This document shows positions 4,744-18,815 of a stretch of DNA of 64,000 nt, piece by piece. This DNA is from Amycolatopsis deserti (GTDB taxonomy: Bacteria > Actinomycetota > Actinomycetes > Mycobacteriales > Pseudonocardiaceae). The first letter of the stretch is position 1. Every line of letters begins with the position of its first letter. Below the pieces are notes generated by a model. That model was not told where the DNA came from. It saw nothing but the letters and a program-made list of their open reading frames with translations, and did no database searches. The stretch covers positions 558,001 through 622,000 of the forward strand of contig NZ_BNAU01000004.1 in assembly GCF_014653945.1 (NCBI RefSeq), read 5' to 3'. Both the position numbers and the translations under genes were made by a program.

Positions 4744-5328
4744 AAGCCAGCCGAATCCAGCGTGCCCCTGACCGACGTGATCGCGCAGCGGTGGAGTCCG
4801 CGGGCGCTCGACGAGACGCGCGAGGTCAGCTGGGACCAGCTGCGCGCGTTGCTCGAAGCCGCGCGGTGGGCGCCGTCTTTCGGGAACACCCAGCCGGCTC
4901 GCTTCCTGGCCGGCCGGCGGGGTGACGCGACCTTCCGGCAGATCCTCGGCACGCTCACCGAGCGGAACCAGGCCTGGGCGCACCGCGCGGGCGCCCTGCT
5001 GATCGGGATCATGGTGTCGCGCAACGAAAAGGGCGAAATCCCCTATGCCGAGTACGGGCTCGGGATGGCCGCGCAGAACCTGGTGCTGCAGGCCGTCGCG
5101 GAGGGGCTCGTCGCGCACCAGATGGCCGGGTTCGACGCCGAGGCCGTCCGCGAGCGATTCGCGGTGCCCGACGACGCGATCCCCCGCGTCGCGATCGCCG
5201 TCGGGCACGCCGGGGATCCGGCGGTGCTCGAGGTGGACAAGCTGATCGAGCGCGAACGGGCGCCCCGGAAACGCCTGCCGCTGGGCGAATTCGCCTACAC
5301 CGGCGAGTGGGGCACGCCCGCGTTCTAG
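4738..5328 (+). CDS. Nitroreductase family protein
   Basis: A 196-residue FMN-dependent oxidoreductase of the nitroreductase superfamily. QRWSPRALDE near residue 20 is the N-terminal FMN-phosphate-binding signature (RRSxR type), followed by ARWAPSFGNTQPARF and the C-terminal GLGMAAQNLVLQAVAEGL helix. Substrate is unknown; relatives reduce quinones or nitro compounds with NAD(P)H. ATG 4738 is chosen over a TTG at 4735. The stop overlaps the stop of the convergent regulator gene by four bases. Confidence 0.88.
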   Translation: MRKPAESSVPLTDVIAQRWSPRALDETREVSWDQLRALLEAARWAPSFGNTQPARFLAGRRGDATFRQILGTLTERNQAWAHRAGALLIGIMVSRNEKGEIPYAEYGLGMAAQNLVLQAVAEGLVAHQMAGFDAEAVRERFAVPDDAIPRVAIAVGHAGDPAVLEVDKLIERERAPRKRLPLGEFAYTGEWGTPAF

Positions 5329-8300
5329 GCCGGGTGCGACCGGAGCTGAGCCAGCGGCGACGAGTGCGGCGCGATGCCCATCTCCTTCATCCGCGTGCGG
5401 TAGATCCGGTCGTACCGGCGGGCCTCGCCGAGACGTCCGGCGTCGCGCAGCGTGGCGATCAGCATCAGGTACGCCTCCTCGTCGTAGACGTCCTTCGCCA
5501 GCAGCCGCAGCGTGTAGCGCACCGCTCCATCGACGTCCCCCGCCTGCCGCAACCGGGAGGCGAGCGCGCGAAGCACCGCGAAGTGCGTCGCGCGGACCTC
5601 CTCCGCCAGCAGCGGAGCCCACTCCTGGTACGGCTCGTCCTCCAGGACCTCCCCGGTGCACGCGGCCGCGGCCGCGGTCAGCCGGGCCGTCGCGTCGGCC
5701 TGCCCGGTGCGGTGCGCCCGCAGCGCCGCCTCGGCGGCGGCGAGGAACTCCTCCAGGTCGACCCGCACCCGCGACCGGTCGAGCCACACCGCGTTGCCGT
5801 CGCTCGCCAGCGGGCCGCCGGCCGACTGGCCCTGCCGCAGCACGTCCCGGACCAGGGACAGCAGGACCGACAACCGGTTGCCGGCCTTGACCGGGTCGGC
5901 TGACGGCCACAGCAGCTCCATCAGCTGTTCGCGCGGTACCGGACGGCGACGGGTGACGAGGATCTTCAGCAGATCCCGAGCCTTGCGCGACTGCCAGGCC
6001 GTCTTCGGCACCGGCGTGCCGTCCACCACCACCTGGAAGGCGCCGAGCGCACGGATGAACACCGCGGGGCCGGACGGGCGTGAAGCCGCCAGCGGTCCCG
6101 CCGCCCGGCGGCCCCCGATGTCGACGCCCGCCTGCCGCAGGGTCTCCTCGGCCAGGCACACGTCGGCCTCCGGCACCGGGGCCCCGATGCGTGCCGCCAC
6201 CACCCGCGTCACCGCCTCCTCCAGGCGGCACCCGTGCTCGTGCCAGAGGTCCACCGCCTCGTCGAGCAGGTCCGCCCTGGCGGCCGGGTCCGGCGACGAC
6301 AACACGCCGAGCGTGATCGCCTCGGCGAGGCCGGGGCCGTCCCGCCGGAGCCGCGCGGCCTTCGCCGCCCGCGCCGCGTCGGCGGCGGCCCGGTCCCGGT
6401 CCTGGGCCAGCAGCGCGACCCAGCCGCTGGTGAGGCGCCCCGGGATCTCCAACAGCCCCTCGCCAAACGCGAGCGCGCGGTCCGCCAGCGTGCGGGCCGT
6501 GGCGAGGTCGTCGGCGGCCCGGACGCGGGCCAGCCCGATCAGCGCGTGCCCGAGGGCGAACAGGTCGTGGTGCGGTTGCGCCACCGCGAGCGCTTCCTCG
6601 TAGTCCGCGGTTGCGCGGACCAGCTGTCCGCGCGTGCGGTGCAGGTCGCCGAGCACGCACAGCGGCCAGGCCAGGAACCGGGATCCGAGGCGCTGGAAGG
6701 TGTCCACGGCCGTGTGGAGGTCGGCCGCCGCCTCGTCCAGTGCGCCGAGCATGAGGTGCGCCCGCGCGCGGACGGTGTGGGCGTGCCCGGTGAGGAACGG
6801 GCACCCGCACTGCTCGCTCGTGCGGAGCGCGAGCTTGGCCTCGGCGAGCGCCTGCCGCGGTGACCCCATGTCGCACGCGTGGAAGGCGTGGCAGACCCGG
6901 ATCCAGCCGACCTGCAGGAGGTCGCCGAGCGCCTGCGCGCTGTGCAACGCGTTGAGGCACTGCACGTCGGCTTCGCGCCGGTCCGGCTCGGCGGCCGCGA
7001 GCATCGCCAGCACCTGGTGGATCGCCGCCCGCGCGCCCGGGGTGCCCGACCGTGTGGCGGCGGCTTCCGCGCGCGCCATCGCCTGCCGCGCCCGGCCGGT
7101 CTCGCCGACCATCCGGCACGTCGTCGCCAGCAGCGCCAGTGCCCTGGCCTCGTCCTCGGTGTCCTCCTCGCCCAGCCGGGTGCGGCCCAGCACGTCCAGC
7201 GTGTTGCCGAACTCGCCCTGGGTGAAGGCGAGCATGCCGATGCGCCAGCCGAGCGCGGCGTCGGGCTCCTCGTGGAACCGGCTCGCGCGGCGGAAGCTCT
7301 CCATGGCCGCCGCCCAGTGGCCCGCCGTCCGTTGCGCCTCACCGAGGACCTGGTGGATGCGGGGATCGTCGAGGAACTCGGTGGGCAGCCCGGCGGCCTC
7401 CAGAACCGCGTCGCCGTGGCCGCTCATCACCAGGGCGTCGCCGTGCTCGACCAGCAACGCGGCGCAGGCGGAGTGCGCGCCCGCCGACGCGAGGTGCCGC
7501 AGCGCGTCGGCCGGCGCCCCCTGGCTGAGGTAGCGCCGCCCGGCTTCGAGGTGCAGCTCGACCCGTTCGCGGGTGGACAGCACGGCCTCGTGGGAGAAGT
7601 AGTGCGCCAGGGGACGGATCAGCGACCAGCGGAGCACATCGCCCGCGGTGCGCGTGACCAGGCCCCGGCGGGTCAGTTCGGTCAGCAGCCGTTCCTGCTC
7701 CGGCCCCGGAGCGCTGATCTCCCCGAGCACGGCGAGCCGGCGCAGTGCCGCGCGGGCGGCCGGCGGCTCCTGGCCGAGCACCTCCTCGGTGAGGAACCCG
7801 TGGAACCGCTCGCCGGGCGCGGTCAGCCGCCGCAGCACCGCGGCGCGCTGCCCGGGCGCGACGTCCCGCATCATCTCCACGACCGTCCGCACCGCGACCG
7901 GCCAGCCCGCGGTGCACTGGTGGATCATGGCGGCCAGCCCGGGCGGATCGTCGCCCACGGTGGCCTGGACCAGCGCCTCGATCCAGGCCGGGCGGACGGC
8001 CAGGTGCGTCGCGTCGATCTCCGCCACCATCCCGCGGCCGCGGAGCCGGGCGAGCGAGAACGGCAGTTCCGCGCGGGACAACAGCATCACGTGCAACCAT
8101 TCCGGCGCGTTCTGGCAAATCGTTTCGACAACCGCGGCGGAACCGTTTTCCGCACTCAATGCCTGAACGTCGTCGATGATCAGGAACAGCTCCCCGGCGC
8201 CCGATCGGCGCAGCTGTTCCGGGTCCCGGGCGATCGGGCGCAGCAGCCGGTCGTGCTCCCCGGCGCGGGCCCACACCGCGGGCCGCGACTCCGCCCACGC

Positions 8301-8414
8301 CGCCACCGCACTGGTTTTTCCCCAGCCGGCGGCGCCGATCACGACCACCAATCGCCGCGCGGACGCCTCGTCGAGCAGACTGCGCACCCCGCCCGGTCGC
8401 CCCCCTGTCGTCAC
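5325..8414 (-). CDS. Large AAA/STAND ATPase with C-terminal SARP-type winged helix and BTAD
   Basis: About 1029 residues. The N-terminus carries a Walker A (GAAGWGKTS) and Walker B-like LFLIIDDV, as in MalT/LAL ATPases, then a long helical TPR-like region. The last 244 residues hold an OmpR-type winged helix (from LGAFQVVVDG) and a bacterial transcriptional activator domain, the DNA-binding pair of SARP regulators, but at the C-terminus instead of the N-terminus. The GTG at 8414, preceded by AGGGAGGA, is preferred over GTG 8483. It lies last in the lanthipeptide locus, where RamR/AmfR (a LuxR-type response regulator) normally sits, so it is the probable pathway activator. Confidence 0.85.
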   Translation of the reverse strand: MTTGGRPGGVRSLLDEASARRLVVVIGAAGWGKTSAVAAWAESRPAVWARAGEHDRLLRPIARDPEQLRRSGAGELFLIIDDVQALSAENGSAAVVETICQNAPEWLHVMLLSRAELPFSLARLRGRGMVAEIDATHLAVRPAWIEALVQATVGDDPPGLAAMIHQCTAGWPVAVRTVVEMMRDVAPGQRAAVLRRLTAPGERFHGFLTEEVLGQEPPAARAALRRLAVLGEISAPGPEQERLLTELTRRGLVTRTAGDVLRWSLIRPLAHYFSHEAVLSTRERVELHLEAGRRYLSQGAPADALRHLASAGAHSACAALLVEHGDALVMSGHGDAVLEAAGLPTEFLDDPRIHQVLGEAQRTAGHWAAAMESFRRASRFHEEPDAALGWRIGMLAFTQGEFGNTLDVLGRTRLGEEDTEDEARALALLATTCRMVGETGRARQAMARAEAAATRSGTPGARAAIHQVLAMLAAAEPDRREADVQCLNALHSAQALGDLLQVGWIRVCHAFHACDMGSPRQALAEAKLALRTSEQCGCPFLTGHAHTVRARAHLMLGALDEAAADLHTAVDTFQRLGSRFLAWPLCVLGDLHRTRGQLVRATADYEEALAVAQPHHDLFALGHALIGLARVRAADDLATARTLADRALAFGEGLLEIPGRLTSGWVALLAQDRDRAAADAARAAKAARLRRDGPGLAEAITLGVLSSPDPAARADLLDEAVDLWHEHGCRLEEAVTRVVAARIGAPVPEADVCLAEETLRQAGVDIGGRRAAGPLAASRPSGPAVFIRALGAFQVVVDGTPVPKTAWQSRKARDLLKILVTRRRPVPREQLMELLWPSADPVKAGNRLSVLLSLVRDVLRQGQSAGGPLASDGNAVWLDRSRVRVDLEEFLAAAEAALRAHRTGQADATARLTAAAAACTGEVLEDEPYQEWAPLLAEEVRATHFAVLRALASRLRQAGDVDGAVRYTLRLLAKDVYDEEAYLMLIATLRDAGRLGEARRYDRIYRTRMKEMGIAPHSSPLAQLRSHPA

Positions 8415-8520
8415 GGCTGGTCCTCCCTCTGCCCGGCCACGAACCACCGCCGAATTCGCCGCGATCACATCCGTGGAATTCACCGGATAATCCGAGATCG
8501 AAAACGAATGGCCCCGGACG

Positions 8521-8550
8521 ATTCTATTCTGCGGCGAGGGCCGGAATCAA
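8521..8550 (-). promoter_or_regulatory. Probable promoter of the SARP-type regulator
   Basis: On the minus strand TTGATT (8545-8550) and TAGAAT (8521-8526) are separated by 18 bp, a good housekeeping-sigma match in an otherwise GC-rich stretch, about 100 bp ahead of the GTG at 8414. This suggests the regulator is transcribed apart from the transporter genes. Confidence 0.5.
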
Positions 8551-8614
8551 ATCGACGAGCGATTTTCCCGCCTGCCGCGCGGGTGGAAATACACTCGCAG
8601 GGCGCGCCCGGTTT

Positions 8615-10321
8615 TCAATTCACCGGGACCGGCGGCTCGGCGTGCCAGTACCCGAGCAGCTCCCGGTACAGCGGCGAGACCGACCGCAGCGCCACCGGAT
8701 CGCCGTCCACCGCGTCGGTCCCGTCGAGCACCAGAACCCGCTTGGCGCGCAAGGCGGAACTGATCCGGTGCGCGATGACCACCACCGTGCCGCCGCGGGC
8801 CGCGAACGCCTCCTCGGCGCGCCGCTCGGCGATCGGGTCCAGGTGGCAGGTCGCCTCGTCCAGGATCACGACCGGCGCGTCGGACAGGTACGCGCGCACG
8901 AGGGCGATCAACTGCCGTTCCCCGGCCGACAACTCGGCCGGTACCACTGCGGCCGGGTATCCGCCGAGGCGGGCGAGCAGGTGTTCCGCGCCGACTTCGG
9001 CCACCGCACGGTCCACCTGGGACACCTCGGCCGACGGCCGCAGGTAGACCAGGTTGTCCCACACCGAGCCGCTGAACACGTACGCCTCCTGCGGGATCAG
9101 CACCCGCAGCCGGGCCAGCTGGGCCGGGGTCAGGCCGGTGACGGACGCGCCGCCGAGCCGGATCGAACCGGACCCGGGCCGCAGCAGTCCGCACACCAGG
9201 CCGGCCAGGGTGGACTTGCCGATTCCGCTCGGCCCGACGATCGCCAGGTGATCCCCTTCCGGCACCACGAGGTCGAGATCGTCGAGCACCGGCTCGGCGT
9301 GCGGCCCGTAGGCGAACGTGACGCCGTCGAGGGCGATGTCGTGCCCGCACGGCGTGGTGGAGACGAGCGGGCCGGGCCGTTCCGGTGGGGCGGTGGCGTC
9401 GAGGATGCGGCCCAGCGTCACCACGAACTGCAGCCCGCTGCTGCCGACGCCGGTGACCAGCGTCTGCAGGGCCGGGTTGAGTCCCATCAGGATGTAGGTC
9501 AGGCCGCCCATGATCGCGCCGGTGGTGAGCCCGCGGCCGACCAGCCACGGCGCGGCGAACAGCAGGACGATCAGCGGCAGCCACACCCCGGCGGCGAAGC
9601 AGAAGGTGCGCAGCACCGCGACCCAGGCGAGTGCGCGCTCGGCGGCCGCCTGCTCCTCGATGGGCTCCGCGGCGAGCGCGGCCGCGTGCCCCTCGGCGCC
9701 GGTCGCGACCACGTCCCGGGTGGCGGACAGCACCGCGTTCGCCGTGTCGCCCACCCGTTCCTCGGCCAGCACCGTCGCCCGCTCGCGTGCGGCGGCCAGC
9801 CCCAGGGTGGCGACGAACGCGCCGAACCCGAGTGCGAACGGCGGGAGGATCAGGCCCACGATCACCGGGTCGATGGACAGCAGCCCCAGCACCACGCCGG
9901 CCACGGTGACGGCGAACCCGCGGGTCACCACGATGAGCCCGGCGAAGGAGTCGCGCACGATCTCCACCTGACGCGTCACCCGGGCCATCGCCCCGTCGTC
10001 GCGGTGGCCGGCGACGGCGTGCGCGAGCGCTCCGCCGACCACCCGGCGGAGGAGGTCGTCGCGGAACGGCTCGACCAGATCGCCGAGGCGGCGGAACACC
10101 TGCCGCGATCCCCACGCCCCGACGCAGGCCGCGAGCAGGAACGCGCCCAGCCAGGCCAGCCCGGTCACCGGCCGCGCCGCGAGGAACCCGTCGTCCATCG
10201 CCTTCGCGATCGCCAGACCGGAGATCGTCGTGGGCAGCGCTTCCGGGACCGACCAGGCGAGGAGCGCGAGCAGCGGCCGCCGGTGCAGCGCCCGCAGCCC
10301 GAACCGGATCTCCCGCTTCAT
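8615..10321 (-). CDS. ABC transporter half-exporter (canonical ATP site)
   Basis: A 568-residue fused TMD-NBD half-transporter. The N-terminal half has six hydrophobic segments (type I exporter fold); the NBD has Walker A GPSGIGKST, signature LSAGERQ, and Walker B VVILDEATCHLD with the catalytic glutamate. The ATG at 10321 overlaps the upstream gene's stop (ATGA), giving tight coupling with its partner. By analogy with RamAB/AmfAB it should export the modified lanthipeptide. A longer reading from 10402 only extends antisense-like sequence over the partner gene. Confidence 0.9.
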   Translation of the reverse strand: MKREIRFGLRALHRRPLLALLAWSVPEALPTTISGLAIAKAMDDGFLAARPVTGLAWLGAFLLAACVGAWGSRQVFRRLGDLVEPFRDDLLRRVVGGALAHAVAGHRDDGAMARVTRQVEIVRDSFAGLIVVTRGFAVTVAGVVLGLLSIDPVIVGLILPPFALGFGAFVATLGLAAARERATVLAEERVGDTANAVLSATRDVVATGAEGHAAALAAEPIEEQAAAERALAWVAVLRTFCFAAGVWLPLIVLLFAAPWLVGRGLTTGAIMGGLTYILMGLNPALQTLVTGVGSSGLQFVVTLGRILDATAPPERPGPLVSTTPCGHDIALDGVTFAYGPHAEPVLDDLDLVVPEGDHLAIVGPSGIGKSTLAGLVCGLLRPGSGSIRLGGASVTGLTPAQLARLRVLIPQEAYVFSGSVWDNLVYLRPSAEVSQVDRAVAEVGAEHLLARLGGYPAAVVPAELSAGERQLIALVRAYLSDAPVVILDEATCHLDPIAERRAEEAFAARGGTVVVIAHRISSALRAKRVLVLDGTDAVDGDPVALRSVSPLYRELLGYWHAEPPVPVN

Positions 10322-11967
10322 CCGAACGCCTCCCGGTAGCCCGCGTCCTGCCAGAGCCGGTGGTGCGGCGCGACGGCCCGCACGCGGCCGGCGTCGAGCC
10401 ACACGACGCAGTCGGCCCGGGCGGCGGTCGAGACGCGGTGGGTGACGATCAGGCGGGTGCGGCCGCCGTCGTCGGTCAAGGTGCGGCTGATCTGCATCTC
10501 CGTGACCATGTCGAGGCTGGAGGTCGCGTCGTCCAGCACGAGCAGGCGCCGCGCGTGCCAGGCCCGGGCCAGGCCGAGGCGCTGGGCTTCACCACCGGAC
10601 ATCGGCGCGTCGGCCAGCGGGGTGTCGTAGCCCTCCGGATAGCGGCTCACGAAGTCGTGGGCGTGGGTGGCGCGGGCGGCGGTCAACACCGAGGCACGGT
10701 CCCGTCCCGACCCGATCGCGTCCGCCACGGTCGCGCCGACCAGCACCGGGCGTTCGAACGCGGCGCACACCGCGGCGCGCAACGCTTCGTGGCTCAGCTC
10801 CCCCAGGGGAACGCCGTCGAGCAGCACCTCGCCCTCGTCCGGGTCGCGCAGCCGCGCGGCGAGCGCCGCGAGCACCGACTTGCCGGCGCCGGAGTGGCCG
10901 ACCACCGCCACGGTCGCGCCACCGGGCACGGTCAGGTCGACGTCGTCGAGCAGGGTGGTCCCGTCCGACCGGACGGTGACGTGGCGGAATTCCAGCCGGC
11001 CAGTGCCCTCGGGCAGCGCCCGCGAGCCGTACTCGACCGCGGGCACGGTGAGCACCTCGGCGGCGCGGGCGGCGCCGGCCCGCGCCCTGGCGAGCTGCCC
11101 GAACACCCCGGCGAGCCCGCCGAGCCCCGCGCCGAGCACCGCGTACCGGCTGGCCGCGAACAGGTCCCCGGCGGTGATCCGGCCATCCACCAGCGCCAGC
11201 CCGCCGACCGCGAGGACGGCGACCAGGACGAGCGGGCCCGCGACGGCGCCCTGCGCGGCCGCCCGGGAGAGCACCTGCCAGGTCTGCCTGCCGTGGCCGT
11301 GCAGCTCGGGAAGCGGTTCGAGCACCCGGCTCTCCTCCCGCCCGGCCGTGCCGGCGGCCGCGATGGTCCGCGCCCCCGCCAGCGACTCCGCGAGCCGGGC
11401 CGCGATCCGGCCCTGGGTCCGCTGGTAGGCGGTGAAGACCGCGGTGCTGCGGACGGTGAAGGCACGCAGCACCGCGGCGACGACCGCGAGCCCGGCGACG
11501 AACGCGACCGCCAGCCACGGGTCGATGACGACCAGCAGCACCAGGCTCCCGGCCGGCGGCAGTACGGCGGCCACCACGGTCACCACGCTCGGTCCGGCCT
11601 GTGCGGCGTCGACGGCGTTGCCGGAGATCCGGCTCACCAGGTCACCGGTGTCGAAGCGGCGGGCGCGGTCCGGCCCCATCCGGAGCACCTGCCGCACCAG
11701 GCGGTTGCGCAGCCACGCGGTCGTGCCCGCGACGCAGGCGATGCCCGCGGAGGCGTCGATCAGGTCGGCGAGGATGCCCACCACGACGAGGGCGGCCGCC
11801 AGCAGCAGCCAGCGGCCGCTGTCGTCCCCGGCCACGATCGCGTCGACCGCGCGCCCGAGCACCGCGGGCAGCGCCAGCGTGCTCAGCGTGCCGGCCAGCG
11901 CGGCGAAACCGATCACCGGCAGCCATGCGCCCCCTCGCCGCACGATCGCACCGAAGGTCGTGGACAC
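10318..11967 (-). CDS. ABC transporter half-exporter (degenerate ATP site)
   Basis: A 549-residue TMD-NBD protein and partner of the downstream half-transporter. Walker A is GHSGAGKSV and the signature MSGGEAQR, but Walker B reads LLVLDDATSSLD, with aspartate where the catalytic glutamate is expected. One degenerate and one canonical site is typical of heterodimeric exporters. The GTG start at 11967 follows GAGGAGG. It is separated from the precursor gene by 69 bp that contain a strong hairpin. Confidence 0.9.
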   Translation of the reverse strand: MSTTFGAIVRRGGAWLPVIGFAALAGTLSTLALPAVLGRAVDAIVAGDDSGRWLLLAAALVVVGILADLIDASAGIACVAGTTAWLRNRLVRQVLRMGPDRARRFDTGDLVSRISGNAVDAAQAGPSVVTVVAAVLPPAGSLVLLVVIDPWLAVAFVAGLAVVAAVLRAFTVRSTAVFTAYQRTQGRIAARLAESLAGARTIAAAGTAGREESRVLEPLPELHGHGRQTWQVLSRAAAQGAVAGPLVLVAVLAVGGLALVDGRITAGDLFAASRYAVLGAGLGGLAGVFGQLARARAGAARAAEVLTVPAVEYGSRALPEGTGRLEFRHVTVRSDGTTLLDDVDLTVPGGATVAVVGHSGAGKSVLAALAARLRDPDEGEVLLDGVPLGELSHEALRAAVCAAFERPVLVGATVADAIGSGRDRASVLTAARATHAHDFVSRYPEGYDTPLADAPMSGGEAQRLGLARAWHARRLLVLDDATSSLDMVTEMQISRTLTDDGGRTRLIVTHRVSTAARADCVVWLDAGRVRAVAPHHRLWQDAGYREAFG

Positions 11968-11985
11968 GTACCCTCCTCCTCAAGG

Positions 11986-12024
11986 CCGCGGCCCCGGACG
12001 AACGCCAGTCGTCCGGGACCGCGG
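11986..12024 (-). terminator. Intercistronic hairpin between precursor and transporter genes
   Basis: Two 16-nt arms (12009-12024 and 11986-12001) around a 7-nt loop. In the minus-strand RNA all positions pair, with one G-U wobble; as plus-strand RNA that position would mismatch, so the structure fits minus-strand transcription. No U-tract follows. It could lower readthrough into the transporter genes or protect the precursor mRNA, so that far more peptide than exporter is made. Confidence 0.65.
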
Positions 12025-12036
12025 CTGCACCCGGGA

Positions 12037-12186
12037 TCAGTGGCAGATCAGGACGCTCAGGCCACTGGTGCCGCCGCAGAGGGTGACGCTCAGGTTGCTC
12101 GGGCAGCTCTTGCCGCTCGCGCTGCTGCCGCCACCGCCCCACTCCGGGGCCGCGCTTTCCATGCCTTGCAGGTCGAGAAGGGCCAT
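12037..12186 (-). CDS. lanA: Class III lanthipeptide precursor (SapB/AmfS-like)
   Basis: A 49-residue peptide with a perfect Shine-Dalgarno sequence (AAGGAGGAGAA) before its ATG. The leader starts MALLDLQGMES; LDLQ is the recognition motif of RamS/AmfS-type precursors. The core has two copies of the S-x2-S-x3-C pattern used for labionin or lanthionine rings: S30-N-L-S33-VTL-C37 and S41-G-L-S44-VLI-C48, ending in H49. This matches the two-ring layout of SapB. Unlike SapB it has an additional S27-C28-P just before the first ring. The product should be a hydrophobic morphogen-like peptide that helps aerial hyphae leave the surface. Confidence 0.92.
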   Translation of the reverse strand: MALLDLQGMESAAPEWGGGGSSASGKSCPSNLSVTLCGGTSGLSVLICH

Positions 12187-12218
12187 TTCTCCTCCTTGGA
12201 GAGTGGGTTGGACGGGGA

Positions 12219-14801
12219 TCACCCTGCCGCGCCGACTGCCGGCGCGGAGGTCTGTGGGGCCGGGGCGGGCGCGAGCAGCGGCAGGTGGACCGGCGGGTCG
12301 GCCAGCACCGAGCCCAGCGCCAGGAGCACCCCGGCGGTGCCGGTGGCGAGGTCCATCGACAGGCGCAGCAGTCCGGTGCCGGGGAACGCCGTGCCACCGC
12401 CGAAGGGAAGCGCGTGCCAGGCCAGCGCGCGCACCTGCCTGGCGACCGACGGGTCGCGCGGCGGATCGGGCGAGCGCCCGGCGAGGTAGAGCAGGATCCC
12501 GGCGCGGCCGGAGAACAGCCCGGGCAGGATGTACATCGGCGACTGCGCGGCGAGCTGGATGCGCCGGTTCGCCTCGGCGAACTCGGCGTCGTCGCGGCGC
12601 GCGAGGAACTCGTCGAGCACCAGGCCGATGCCGACGCTGCCGACGTCCAGGTAGGGCATGGTGCGCCAGCCCTCGTTGACCTCCAGCGCGCCGCTGTCGC
12701 GGACGACGCACTGCCGGAGGTCCTGCCGCAGCGCGATCGCGGCGCGGTCGAGCAGGGCGGTGTCGCCGGTGTCGTCGTAGGCCCGCAGGAGCAGCAGCGC
12801 CTTGCCCGCGCCGCCGCGCATCAGGCCCGCGAAGGAGCCGTCCCGGCCGCTGATCTCCGGGCCGTCGGCGGCGTCACCGACCCGCTCGGCGACCAGTTCC
12901 ACCGCCCGGTGCGCGGCCCGCCGGAGCGTCGGATCGCCGGTGCGGCCGGCGAAGTGCAGGAGGTTCAGGCCGGCGCCGGCCAGCCCGCCGCCCAGGTCCG
13001 GCCCGAGCGCTTCCCAGTTCTCGCGCAGGCAGATGTCCAGCACGTCCAGCGCCTGCTGCCGGTATCCGAGGTGGTCCAGGGCGAAGGCCGCGCCGTGCAG
13101 CCCGTCGAACAGGCCGAGCCGGGTGCCGCCCGGCGGGTTGGTCGCGCGGTCGACGAGCCACTTCTCGAAGACGGGGCTGGGATCCGCACCGGTCGCGGAC
13201 AACGCGTAGAGCACCCCGGCGGCGCCGTGGGCCAGGCCGATGCCGCCGGTGGCGAACTGCTCCGGATCGCCGGGGAAGAGCCGGTCGTCCCGCTCCGGCG
13301 TCGCGCTCGCCACGATCGCGCGCACCAGGTCGTCGCGCAGCTCGGGCCAATCCGCCGGGTCCGGTTCGATCCGCGGGTGCGGCAGGTGCGGGGTACCCGG
13401 CGGCACGATCACGTCGACCGCCTCGGTGAGGTAGCTCCGCGGCACCGGGAAGTGCTCGGCGATGATCTCGGCGAACTGCCGCGCCTTCACCCGGTGCAGG
13501 CCGAACAGGTAGGTCATCGGCAGGAACAGCGCCAGGCGCAGGCACGCGAGCGCGTAGCGGTCGATGTCGAAACCGGTGACGCTGCGCGGCGCGGCGAACC
13601 CCTGGTTGCCCAGGCCCGGCCGGGCCGCCTCCGCGACCGGGGCGGCCACCTCGAAGTCGAGCAGCCGGATCGTGCCGTCCGCGCGCACCATGACGTTGAA
13701 CAGGTGCAGGTCGCCGTAGACGATCCCGCGCTCGTGCACCGCACGCATCGTCTCTTCGATCTGCCGCTGGATCCCCATGGCCCAGTCGGTGAAGTCGCGG
13801 TAGTCCTCCGGTCCAGCACTCGGGTCGATGAGCGGGTACCGGCGGACGATCGCCTTGCCCAGCACGTCGCCCTCGACGTACTCCATCACCAGGAACCGGT
13901 GCTCGCCGAGCCAGAACAGGTCGTGCACCTCGGGGATCCCCGGGATGCCCGCCAGCCGCCGCAGGATGTCGTGCTCGTGCTCGACGCGCCGCACCGCGTC
14001 GTGGCCCCACGCGTCGAGTCCCGCGTGCGGGCGGCCCTCCTTGAGGACCACCTGGGCGCCGGTGCGGTTGTCCCGGCCGACGTAGATCCCGCCGCCGTTG
14101 GAGAAGTGCACGACTCGCTCGATCGTGTAGGGCAGGCCGGCGACGGTGACCGCGTTGCGGGCTTCCAGGTGCGGCGCGAGGAAGTCGGGGAGCGTCACCC
14201 ACGGCGGCACGTGGAACACCGGCCCGCGGCGGTCCGGGACCAGCCGGCCTTCGCCGTCCGCGATGGCCGGCACCACGTCACCGTTTTCGGTGACCATGTA
14301 CCGGTTGACGAACGCGCCGTAGCGCACGAACAGCGGCCCGCGCCCCCAGCGCAGGTCGCTCAGGATGTAGGGGTTCGGCTCGCCGTCGAGCGTCTCGCCG
14401 AGTTCGCGCAGGATCGTCTCGCACGCGCCGAGATCGGGCGGGTAGATCGTCACCAGCTTGCCGCTGTACCCGCGCGGCGCGTACTTGGAGACCCGGGCGG
14501 TCAGCGCGGCGGGCGAGCGCAGGAACTTGAACTCGATCCGCCGCGGCACGCAGTAGTCCCACACCGCGTCGAGGATCTTCTCGGCGTTGCCCGGCGTGGC
14601 GGAGACGTGGATCTTCCACCCCTGCGCGGGCAGCCCGGTGGCTCCCGGGTCGAGCACGAACCAGTCGTCCTGCTCGTACCGGCGCCAGCCGTCGGGCAGG
14701 GGCAGCCGCGCGGTGGCGAAGGACGGGCCGGCGGTGCGCTCGGAGTGCATGGCGTCGTAGAACGACGAGTCGGCCATGCAGAATCGCTCGTACTCGTCCA
14801 T
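12219..14801 (-). CDS. lanKC: Class III lanthipeptide synthetase (lyase-kinase-cyclase, RamC-like)
   Basis: Phosphorylates Ser/Thr of the precursor, eliminates phosphate and cyclises. About 860 residues. The start MDEYERFCMADSSFYDAM is typical of RamC/AmfT; the ATG at 14801 with GAGGTGGC ahead is preferred over 14837. Lyase region about 1-215; kinase region with VVLK (K254), YGDLHLFN (D364, N369) and LLDFEV (D382) as catalytic and metal residues; LanC-like cyclase from about residue 520 to the end. The cyclase lacks the Cys-Cys/His zinc ligands of LanC, as is usual in class III. Only 32 bp separate it from the precursor gene, so they form one operon. Confidence 0.95.
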   Translation of the reverse strand: MDEYERFCMADSSFYDAMHSERTAGPSFATARLPLPDGWRRYEQDDWFVLDPGATGLPAQGWKIHVSATPGNAEKILDAVWDYCVPRRIEFKFLRSPAALTARVSKYAPRGYSGKLVTIYPPDLGACETILRELGETLDGEPNPYILSDLRWGRGPLFVRYGAFVNRYMVTENGDVVPAIADGEGRLVPDRRGPVFHVPPWVTLPDFLAPHLEARNAVTVAGLPYTIERVVHFSNGGGIYVGRDNRTGAQVVLKEGRPHAGLDAWGHDAVRRVEHEHDILRRLAGIPGIPEVHDLFWLGEHRFLVMEYVEGDVLGKAIVRRYPLIDPSAGPEDYRDFTDWAMGIQRQIEETMRAVHERGIVYGDLHLFNVMVRADGTIRLLDFEVAAPVAEAARPGLGNQGFAAPRSVTGFDIDRYALACLRLALFLPMTYLFGLHRVKARQFAEIIAEHFPVPRSYLTEAVDVIVPPGTPHLPHPRIEPDPADWPELRDDLVRAIVASATPERDDRLFPGDPEQFATGGIGLAHGAAGVLYALSATGADPSPVFEKWLVDRATNPPGGTRLGLFDGLHGAAFALDHLGYRQQALDVLDICLRENWEALGPDLGGGLAGAGLNLLHFAGRTGDPTLRRAAHRAVELVAERVGDAADGPEISGRDGSFAGLMRGGAGKALLLLRAYDDTGDTALLDRAAIALRQDLRQCVVRDSGALEVNEGWRTMPYLDVGSVGIGLVLDEFLARRDDAEFAEANRRIQLAAQSPMYILPGLFSGRAGILLYLAGRSPDPPRDPSVARQVRALAWHALPFGGGTAFPGTGLLRLSMDLATGTAGVLLALGSVLADPPVHLPLLAPAPAPQTSAPAVGAAG

Positions 14802-14858
14802 GCCACCTCGCTTGGTCGCCACGGCACCGCCGGGCACAAGCTAGGTGGCAGGTCTTCC

Positions 14859-14891
14859 GGTCGCCTTAGTCTCCGCTTAGGGTCCGCTTTG
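14859..14891 (-). promoter_or_regulatory. Three tandem 11-bp repeats upstream of lanKC (candidate SARP operator)
   Basis: On the minus strand three consecutive 11-mers read CAAAGCGGACC, CTAAGCGGAGA and CTAAGGCGACC. SARP regulators bind heptamers repeated every 11 bp, and a SARP-type protein is encoded in this locus. A TAnnnT-type -10 (TAGCTT, 14838-14843) lies 15 bp downstream, and the lanKC ATG is 57 bp downstream of the repeat block. Confidence 0.55.
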
Positions 14892-14897
14892 GCTTGA

Positions 14898-17294
<2,397 letters not shown>

Positions 17295-17300
17295 CGCACG

Positions 17301-17338
17301 AAGGCCGGCCGCTCCCCACGGGGGCGGCCGGCCTTTTT
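17301..17338. terminator. Bidirectional terminator between leuA and the AhpD-like gene
   Basis: AGGCCGGCCGC and its reverse complement flank a short loop, with AA on one side and TTTTT on the other (CGGCCGGCCTTTTT). It serves leuA and, on the other strand, the convergent gene ending at 17342. Confidence 0.85.
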
Positions 17339-17341
17339 CGT

Positions 17342-17830
17342 TCAGTGCGCCGCGGCCGAGAACATCCCGGGCTGGTAGGAGCCGCCCTGGTTGCGGACTA
17401 TCACGTTCATCCGGTTGGCCGCGTTGATCATCGCCACCAGGGTGATGAGCGCGGCGGTCTGGTCGTCGTCGTAGTGCTTGCGCACCTGGGCCCACGTCTC
17501 GTCCGACACGCCCTCGTGCGCGTCGGCGAGGCGGGTGCCCTCCTCGGCCAGCGCGAGCGCCGCCCGCTCGGCCTCGGTGAACACCGTGGCCTCGCGCCAG
17601 ACCGCGACCAGGTTGAGCCGCGTCGCGGTCTCCCCGGCGGCCGCGGCCTCCTTGGTGTGCATGTCGACGCACAGCGCGCACCCGTTGATCTGGCTGGCCC
17701 GCAACGACACCAGCTCCTGCGTGGACTGCGGCAGCGCCGTCGACTGCAGCACCGCGGCCACCCCCGCGAACCGCTTCGCCAGCTTCGCCCCGACCTCGTT
17801 GGCCATCAGGTTGAACCGGGTTTCCACCAC
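17342..17830 (-). CDS. Carboxymuconolactone decarboxylase / AhpD-like protein
   Basis: A 162-residue all-helical protein. SQINGCALCVDMHTKEA holds the Cys-x2-Cys...His arrangement of AhpD-like peroxidase partners. Family members act as alkylhydroperoxidase components or decarboxylases; the substrate here is unknown. The GTG at 17830, preceded by GAGGAGGA, is preferred to ATG 17866, which would add 12 acidic residues. It stands between leuA and a LysR gene, with its own start region. Confidence 0.85.
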   Translation of the reverse strand: MVETRFNLMANEVGAKLAKRFAGVAAVLQSTALPQSTQELVSLRASQINGCALCVDMHTKEAAAAGETATRLNLVAVWREATVFTEAERAALALAEEGTRLADAHEGVSDETWAQVRKHYDDDQTAALITLVAMINAANRMNVIVRNQGGSYQPGMFSAAAH

Positions 17831-17903
17831 TTCGTCCTCCTCGGAGTCGCTCTCGTACGACCACAAGGCACCGGCCGCGCGCCGGATGTGACAGTGACGG
17901 CCG

Positions 17904-18815
17904 TCACGGCTTGGTCGTCACCGCGGCGGCCTCGGCGTGCAGGAGCTCCAGCACCGTGGCGACCGGCGGGCGCGTGCCGGCGCCGGTGCGCAGGACGGCC
18001 TCGATCAGCCGCGCCGCGCGGATACCGGCCAGCGGCCGCCGCACGATCCGCCGCGACCAGGTCCCGGCCAGCGTGTAGCGCGGCAGCAGCGCGATGCCGT
18101 GCCCGGCCGCGACCAGGGCCTCGATGATCCGGAAGTCGTTGATGCGCTGCTTGACCCGCGGCCGCACCCCGGTGCGCACCGCGAGCGACCGCAGCACGTC
18201 GTCGACCGGGAAGCCGACGTCCACCGAGATCCACTGCTCCCCGGCCAGCTCGGTGAGGTCCACGCGGCGGCGCCGCGCGAGGTGGTGGCCGAGCGGCAGC
18301 GCCACGTCCAACGGCTCGCGCAGCAGGTGCACCACGTCCAGCCGGGCGGACGGGAACGGCTCGGCGTGCTCGTCCCGGTGCGTGACCACGATGTCGAAGT
18401 CGGCGACCAGCTCCGGCACCTCGGCCGGCGTCATGTCGACGTCGCGCACCTCCACGTCCAGGCCCTCGACCTCGGCGAACCGGTGCAGCAGCCCGGGCAG
18501 CAACATCAACGCGGCGGACGGGAAGATCGCCACCCGCACCCGGCCGCGTGGCAGGCTGCGGAACACGTCCATCTCCGCCTCGGCGCGATCCATCGCGGCG
18601 ATGACCTCGTCCGCCCGCACCACCAGCGCCCGGCCCGCGTCGGTGAGCCGCAGCCCGCGACCGGCCGGTTCGGTGAGGACCAGCCCGACCTCCGCCTGCA
18701 GCGCCCGGAGCTGCTGCGACACCGCGGACGGCGTGCAGTGCAGGGCCTTCGCCGCGGCCGTCACGCTGCCGCGATCGGCGAACTCGCGCAGTACCCGCAA
18801 CCGGCCGATGTCCAT
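17904..18815 (-). CDS. LysR-family transcriptional regulator
   Basis: 303 residues. The N-terminal winged helix (DIGRLRVLREFADRGSVTAAA, then TPSAVSQQLRALQ as recognition helix) is followed by the periplasmic-binding-like effector domain. It is divergently transcribed from an EamA transporter with a 71-bp gap holding an inverted repeat, so it most likely controls that exporter. The effector is unknown. Confidence 0.9.
   Translation of the reverse strand: MDIGRLRVLREFADRGSVTAAAKALHCTPSAVSQQLRALQAEVGLVLTEPAGRGLRLTDAGRALVVRADEVIAAMDRAEAEMDVFRSLPRGRVRVAIFPSAALMLLPGLLHRFAEVEGLDVEVRDVDMTPAEVPELVADFDIVVTHRDEHAEPFPSARLDVVHLLREPLDVALPLGHHLARRRRVDLTELAGEQWISVDVGFPVDDVLRSLAVRTGVRPRVKQRINDFRIIEALVAAGHGIALLPRYTLAGTWSRRIVRRPLAGIRAARLIEAVLRTGAGTRPPVATVLELLHAEAAAVTTKP

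Follow-up and report, generated by a model that had tools for sequence, protein, structure and literature searches.

A STAND-SARP regulator in the place of RamR, with a candidate operator, at a SapB-type class III lanthipeptide locus of Amycolatopsis deserti

Gene content of the locus and architecture of its regulator

The class III lanthipeptide locus described here lies in a 64,000-nucleotide stretch of Amycolatopsis deserti DNA (the window; contig NZ_BNAU01000004.1, positions 558,001 to 622,000, or G000:C4:558001-622000 in our numbering), which is part of a 7.74-Mb genome in 24 contigs. An earlier note, made from the sequence of the window, had placed five genes there: a LanKC synthetase, a 49-residue precursor with an LDLQ leader and two half-transporters in RamC-RamS-RamAB order, and as the fifth gene an unusual regulator. 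All five genes are on the minus strand, in the order and at the places given in that note. The features, in window coordinates, are:

14847..14890, minus strand: proposed SARP operator of four 11-bp phased repeats, AAAGCGGACCC TAAGCGGAGAC TAAGGCGACCG GAAGACCTGCC (from the sequence and genome scans)
14838..14843, minus strand: -10-like TAGCTT of the lanKC promoter, with the heptamer GAAGACC 7 bp before it (from the sequence; same layout in loci L014, L162 and L163, introduced below)
12219..14801, minus strand: LanKC class III lanthionine synthetase (RamC-like), 860 residues, ATG at 14801 (NF038151, RamC_N)
12037..12186, minus strand: SapB/RamS-type precursor, 49 residues, with two S-x2-S-x3-C motifs (PF19402, NF033212, translation)
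10318..11967, minus strand: ABC half-transporter 1 (ABC1), RamA/RamB-like (ABC_membrane and ABC_tran)
8615..10321, minus strand: ABC half-transporter 2 (ABC2; ABC_tran, homologues at the same position in relatives)
8521..8550, minus strand: promoter-like TTGATT-18-TAGAAT 5' of the regulator gene (from the sequence; one base different in A. thermalba, TTGATC)
5325..8414, minus strand: regulator of 1029 residues, with a MalT-like STAND ATPase, TPR and a C-terminal SARP
8313..8336, minus strand: Walker A motif GAAGWGKT of the regulator (alignment of 35 homologues)
5361..6062, minus strand: SARP module of the regulator, winged helix and BTAD (BTAD match, EmbR/AfsR profile, likeness to L197 and L198)

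The synthetase matches NCBIfam NF038151 with 1093 bits (cut-off 575) and Pfam RamC_N with 267 bits; its RamC_N, Pkinase and LANC_like domains all score above the Pfam cut-off, and its start codon at 14801 is preceded by GAGGTGGC. It is the single LanKC of the genome. The four other matches are partial, reach at most 36.5 bits and are taken to be kinase domains. The precursor consists of a MALLDLQ leader and a core with the two S-x2-S-x3-C motifs, and scores 54.4 bits with Pfam RamS (PF19402) and 49.8 bits with NCBIfam SapB_AmfS_lanti (NF033212). Both half-transporters are located 3' of the precursor, as in SapB/RamS-type class III loci; ABC1 is 68–71 % identical to its counterparts in L006–L011 and L015, and the ATG of ABC2 overlaps the ABC1 stop (ATGA). 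These matches and coordinates bear out the gene set and order of the earlier note and confirm, at the level of sequence, a SapB-type class III lanthipeptide locus. The RamC-RamS-RamA-RamB set and order and the SapB-type precursor are shared with ramCSAB-ramR of Streptomyces coelicolor and amf of S. griseus, which encode SapB and AmfS; the order ramCSAB is named in passages of PMC5650626 and PMC13380574. A morphogen role of the A. deserti peptide may be supposed. None of the five genes contains a TTA codon, and Pfam found no S9 peptidase among them.

The regulator starts with GTG at 8414, preceded by GGAGG. Its residues are numbered here as in P0001 (+23 relative to the 1029-residue protein). 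The Walker A motif is intact at residues 50–57, and the alignment of 35 homologues also contains LFLIIDD (Walker B). Residues 98–357 match the MalT chain of PDB 8bob (E 2.5e-11), TPR_MalT reaches 42.3 bits, just below its cut-off of 45, and AAA_16 reaches 18.1, below 32.6. The SARP module is C-terminal (residues 808–1041). Within it, BTAD scores 39.6 bits (cut-off 22.1) and Trans_reg_C 18.2 (below 26.2; the same domain reaches 26.3 in L197, a relative consisting of a SARP only), and a profile built from 18 homologous C-termini finds EmbR (2fez, E 6e-11) and AfsR (8hvr, E 1e-5) in PDB. GerE, the LuxR helix-turn-helix, has no match in the regulator at E 0.01, and BTAD stands in its place. The earlier description of a 1029-residue AAA protein with a winged helix and BTAD at its C-terminus was thus correct.

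Like AfsR and other large SARPs, the regulator unites a SARP with NOD and TPR modules. However, their SARP is N-terminal, whereas that of the regulator is C-terminal, behind the MalT-like NOD; passages of PMC10972967 describe large SARPs with N-terminal SARPs only. With MalT and the LAL regulators it shares a MalT-like NOD and TPR ahead of a C-terminal DNA-binding part, which is a LuxR helix-turn-helix in those proteins and a SARP winged helix with BTAD in this one. Proteins of this architecture are present in databases under generic BTAD names. A search of the open literature, with subscription papers mostly outside its scope, returned no report of a class III locus with a SARP, nor of a protein in which a MalT-like NOD precedes a C-terminal SARP. 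The parts are of known kinds; what looks new is the way they are combined, together with the operator.

Of the named relatives found, Amycolatopsis thermalba NRRL B-24845 (L014) is the closest, its LanKC being 95 % and its regulator 93 % identical. The gap of about 200 bp between the regulator and ABC2 looks, by eye, well conserved in A. thermalba and contains the promoter-like site. Therefore, the regulator may have its own promoter, and its place as the fifth gene is confirmed, but its simple membership of the operon is qualified.

Regulators of class III loci in related genomes

A search of genome contigs for LanKC homologues yielded 13 loci. In 12 of them a RamR-like gene lies beyond ABC2 in convergent orientation; the thirteenth, that of A. 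thermalba, has a STAND-SARP. Pfam analysis of seven of the 12 RamR-type loci found GerE in all seven and Response_reg in six (below cut-off in three, none in L012). In L016 and L017 the RamR-like regulator is about 2 kb beyond ABC2, not immediately adjoining. Twenty LanKC regions were taken from the same bacterial family, Pseudonocardiaceae: 16 are RamR-like, one has a STAND-SARP (L162, genome G047), two have neither (L155, L161) and one is cut by a contig end (L157). Together with the A. deserti locus, and after leaving out five family regions judged to be first-search contigs, with identical proteins, there are 29 distinct class III loci: 23 with a convergent RamR-like regulator, three with a STAND-SARP (A. 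deserti, A. thermalba, L162), two with neither and one cut off. The two SARP-only loci found through the operator are outside this count. Besides A. deserti and G014, 20 of the 22 LanKC matches with at least 50 % identity were taken, the other two (G054, G160) being fragments. From the matches at 38–49 %, those covered were the same-genus L087–L090 (45–46 %), in which no RamR-like match occurs among the called genes; L091 (34 %) was added. The gene caller picks wrong-strand frames in places (for example in L014), and the key genes were therefore placed by tblastn.

The view that ram-type loci carry a LuxR-type response regulator, on which the earlier note relied, holds for the large majority of these loci. 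At the A. deserti and A. thermalba loci, the comparison of LanKC neighbourhoods revealed a STAND-SARP and no RamR-like gene. The A. deserti locus is not a canonical ram locus, as judged by gene content, since it carries a STAND-SARP in contrast to the RamR-type response regulator of ram. According to parts of PMC5650626, RamR is a direct activator of the ramC operon and MtrA is important as well, and a class III cluster reported in 2026 likewise has a response regulator, according to parts of PMC13380574.

In the LanKC tree, A. deserti and A. thermalba are positioned inside a clade of 19 rows, the remaining 17 of which are all RamR-type, and L162 groups with two Actinomadura loci (98/78), both RamR-type. 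Because L162 and the A. deserti/A. thermalba pair sit in different RamR-type groups, the tree points to separate STAND-SARP takeovers, although its label-change count does not force more than one.

Two side observations concern the loci of this comparison. L155 and L161 each hold a second copy of LanKC/ABC1/ABC2, beside genes that resemble those of ribosomal proteins, as judged by sequence start. The L008 locus (JOAA01000001.1, 'Rhodococcus rhodnii NRRL B-16535') is almost identical to that of Kibdelosporangium aridum, with a response regulator 97 % identical, and the assembly is probably mislabelled.

The earlier note had named a RamR-like gene elsewhere in the genome as a possible controller of the operon. 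The STAND-SARP would then be a passenger, a chance neighbour of an operon under a distant RamR-like regulator, which we regard as very unlikely. The genome contains 37 matches to a RamR-like query, the best two 45 % and 42 % identical, and the gap with a promoter-like site would suit a passenger too. For comparison, 13 locus regulators of the same family are 62–86 % identical to the query, four others of the family 49–53 % and five of other families 38–45 %. Because locus regulators of other families reach only these last values, identity fails to separate the best two A. deserti matches from them and does not by itself exclude these two as RamR-like. However, both adjoin genes whose best NCBIfam matches, though below cut-off, are to sensor kinases, and in the response-regulator tree both fall outside the main clade, which contains 20 of the 22 locus-borne regulators (support 91/88). 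Seven of the 37 matches were placed in this tree, none of them in the clade of 20, and an unlinked RamR orthologue was rejected on these grounds. L079 and L080 share a part of the tree with the Actinomadura locus regulators L016 and L017; therefore, their exclusion rests on the clade and the neighbours, not on distance alone. A passenger is also difficult to reconcile with the conservation of the regulator in A. thermalba, with the occurrence of its family beside class III (G047) and class IV (G031) genes in other positions and orientations, and with its link to the operator.

The candidate operator of lanKC

The proposed operator contains the repeat cores AAAG-TAAG-TAAG-GAAG at 11-bp phase, and GAAGACCTGCC is followed by ACC and the -10-like TAGCTT. 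In SARP promoters, direct repeats are 11 or 22 bp apart (PMC10936776, in the passages on promoter layout), and 11-bp direct repeats 5' of the -10 are common to the A. deserti locus and AfsR-type regulators. The L162 and L163 promoters have the same layout of TAAG, TAAG, GAA and CCTA. The sequence AAGCGGA-N4-AAGCGGA has one exact site in the whole A. deserti genome, at the lanKC promoter; with one mismatch there are two sites, and three in the reversed control. TAAG-N7-TAAG occurs 11 times, near-copies and overlapping pairs included, in 22 STAND-SARP loci (457,867 bp), and every other spacing between 4 and 25 yields zero to two matches. It is absent from 23 RamR-type loci (434,189 bp) and nine others. 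A further 18 STAND-SARP loci contain only two sites, which are sisters. In all 40 STAND-SARP loci (805,685 bp, A. deserti and A. thermalba included), eight independent sites stand against an expectation of 0.62 at the own-genome rate (Poisson 3e-7), and six against 0.56 when A. deserti and L162 are left out (3e-5). In L163 (class IV) and L129 (lasso), the repeats are located 5' of biosynthetic genes. The other five TAAG-N7-TAAG sites of the A. deserti genome have no visible shared context and are taken as chance, and a wider regulon was rejected.

The TAAG repeats thus set the A. deserti lanKC promoter apart from ram and amf, and their absence at RamR-type loci supports, with the neighbourhood comparison, the earlier proposal of a regulator other than RamR. 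Trans and cis elements appear to have changed together, since RamR-type loci are without TAAG repeats and the lanthipeptide loci with a related STAND-SARP have both the SARP and the repeats.

Ten of the 12 RamR-type loci of the first search (L016 and L017 left out) were used for a comparison of promoters. In seven of these (L006–L011 and L015, among them several close relatives), TGAC recurs at a distance of 22 bp, and these repeats are candidate RamR or MtrA sites; none of the ten has TAAG within 250 bp. The repeats before lanKC could accordingly be used by another binder of phased repeats, such as the OmpR-family MtrA or PhoP or an unlinked SARP, with the STAND-SARP controlling something else. 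In S. coelicolor, MtrA has a strong effect on ramCSAB, as stated in part of PMC5650626. Such global regulators are assumed to be common to these genomes, yet no RamR-type locus has the TAAG repeats, and we consider this explanation unlikely; the sites described next, most of which adjoin the SARP type of the regulator, also argue against it.

The full operator pattern was written from A. deserti, L162 and L163 and searched blindly, with at most one mismatch, in 249 genomes of the family. There were seven sites and none in the reversed control. Four are exact, at the three source loci and in A. thermalba, and three are new. Six of the seven precede a lanthipeptide synthetase that adjoins a related SARP. 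The new sites in G400 and G420 precede a LanKC (50–52 % identical) accompanied by ABC1, ABC2 and a divergent SARP (loci L197 and L198), about 55 % identical to residues 808–1049 of the regulator. The open frames of these SARPs are 344 and 544 residues long, with uncertain starts, and neither the frames nor their surroundings match the regulator before residue 808, that is, its STAND and TPR parts. An S9 protease is Pfam-confirmed in L197 and recognized by sequence start only in L198; of the two loci, L198 alone has a SapB-like precursor.

In the SARP-domain tree, the G400 and G420 proteins are sister to the G047 STAND-SARP (100/100), within the STAND-SARPs, with deeper forks at 82–91; another short SARP-only frame, L122, groups elsewhere. 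Because the SARP-only proteins nest inside the STAND-SARPs, loss of the STAND part at these two loci is the simpler history. Their grouping with the G047 STAND-SARP also indicates that the operator is tied to the DNA-binding module, the sensor part being separable.

The STAND-SARP family and the proposed mode of control

Full-length homologues of the regulator with 42–56 % identity, and weaker ones below, occur in several genera among 150 genomes of the family, and in 200 genomes of the order only distant homologues were found besides G000. The gene neighbourhoods of 40 such loci were compared, A. deserti and A. thermalba included. The L162 STAND-SARP, about 46 % identical to that of A. deserti, is divergent from LanKC at a class III locus with a SapB-type precursor and an S9 protease. 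L163 (G031; about 41 %) is a class IV, VenA-type locus at 6079–18516, with LanL at 1072 bits, a VenA precursor at 94.6 bits (a second precursor copy was left out of the scan), an S9 peptidase and ABC1/ABC2 homologues; its STAND-SARP is convergent beyond ABC2, where RamR normally sits. L129 is a lasso locus (asparagine synthase, PqqD, transglutaminase) with a candidate precursor of 36 residues that has no family match. Lasso-like genes (asparagine synthase, PqqD) also neighbour the STAND-SARPs of L133 and L138, and a nonribosomal peptide synthetase-like gene that of L132.

SARPs have been linked to such clusters before. The A127-LP SARP of Actinoalloteichus fjordicus is likewise tied to a promoter of a ribosomally synthesized and post-translationally modified peptide (RiPP), although its product is a lasso peptide; part of PMC5974421 reports that it raised the lasso promoter about 5-fold in a reporter test. 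CaoR5 is a SARP in a lanthipeptide cluster, that of cacaoidin, which is class V and has five regulators; the likeness is by description only, as a BTAD protein in part of PMC8068269.

Some neighbouring genes were noted in passing. S9 prolyl-oligopeptidase-type genes inside SARP-linked lanthipeptide loci (L162 6897–8903, L197 5234–7210, L163 8877–10856) are candidates for leader-removal enzymes. Copper amine oxidases, possible tailoring enzymes, are encoded directly behind triple TAAG repeats and adjoining a STAND-SARP in L123 (8960–11095), and directly behind ABC2 in the SARP-linked class III locus L197 (2–1903). L124 (3887–13669) has two same-strand STAND-SARP genes, both about 53 % identical to the A. 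deserti regulator, with an opposite-strand open frame of 919 residues between them.

Based on these comparisons, a mechanism can be proposed by analogy with AfsR and MalT. A STAND-gated SARP has probably replaced RamR as the cluster-situated activator and acts directly on the lanKC operon. The C-terminal SARP module would bind the 11-bp phased TAAG/GAAG repeats just 5' of the lanKC -10 and recruit RNA polymerase to the lanKC-ramS-ABC operon, the expected product of which is a SapB-like peptide. The N-terminal MalT-like STAND ATPase and the TPR would keep the regulator inactive until a signal is sensed and would gate the SARP through ATP and that signal. Because the STAND ATPase is intact and is accompanied by a TPR region, production may be gated by a nucleotide or ligand, as the earlier note had suggested.

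Several observations weigh against this mechanism. With two sequences, AlphaFold predicted the SARP module at a pLDDT of 48.5, and the model was set aside. The gap to the -10 is 7 bp, one less than the 8 bp given for the 3' repeat of SARP promoters (PMC10936776, same passages). TAAG-N7-TAAG is absent from 30 of the 40 STAND-SARP loci (present in 10), which means that the operator either has diverged or is limited to part of the family, and TAAG-N7-TAAG on its own is at chance in the A. deserti genome (6 matches, 13 in the reversed control). Phased repeats can also be targets of OmpR-type global regulators, and the TGAC repeats of RamR-type promoters mean that such repeats are not peculiar to SARPs. 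The third new site of the blind search (G117:C208, L199) has no LanKC and no SARP of this type within 19 kb, and a search of 298 genomes of the order, partly overlapping with the family set, returned only the known sites in G000 and G031, with two in the reversed control. No LanKC match is near the 18 further, distant STAND-SARPs (32–40 %; L188, 50 %). The flanks taken of L155 and L161 contain neither a RamR-like nor a SARP regulator and no TAAG repeats; therefore, distal control occurs or is possible.

The regulator could instead be a repressor, or act with further activators, in the manner of Atr32, a SARP with NB-ARC in the atratumycin cluster, disruption of which increased atratumycin 2.3-fold (PMC6835768, in part). 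However, repeats just 5' of the -10 are the layout of SARP-activated promoters in the passages of PMC10936776, and the loci with SARP-only relatives keep this layout, and we hold both repression and such joint action to be distinctly improbable.

Direct activation of the lanKC operon by a STAND-gated SARP can be extended, tentatively, to a wider picture. In Pseudonocardiaceae, C-terminal-SARP STAND proteins may be a family of switches that serve RiPP clusters of the class III, class IV and lasso types and some other clusters, with at least part of the family reading a portable TAAG operator. RamR control may have been displaced more than once, and the loss of the sensor half at related class III loci may have created a natural ungated version. 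We speculate that the signal comes from the cell envelope, or is the peptide or its precursor.

A STAND-SARP has apparently taken over the control of a morphogen-type operon from a response regulator, and the promoter has been altered accordingly. The regulator and the repeats are a candidate pair for the control of SapB-like peptides beyond Streptomyces, read from sequence and partly backed by the blind genome search. The SARP-only relatives provide a natural test of the role of the STAND part, and suggest that silent loci may be switched on by expressing the SARP module alone.

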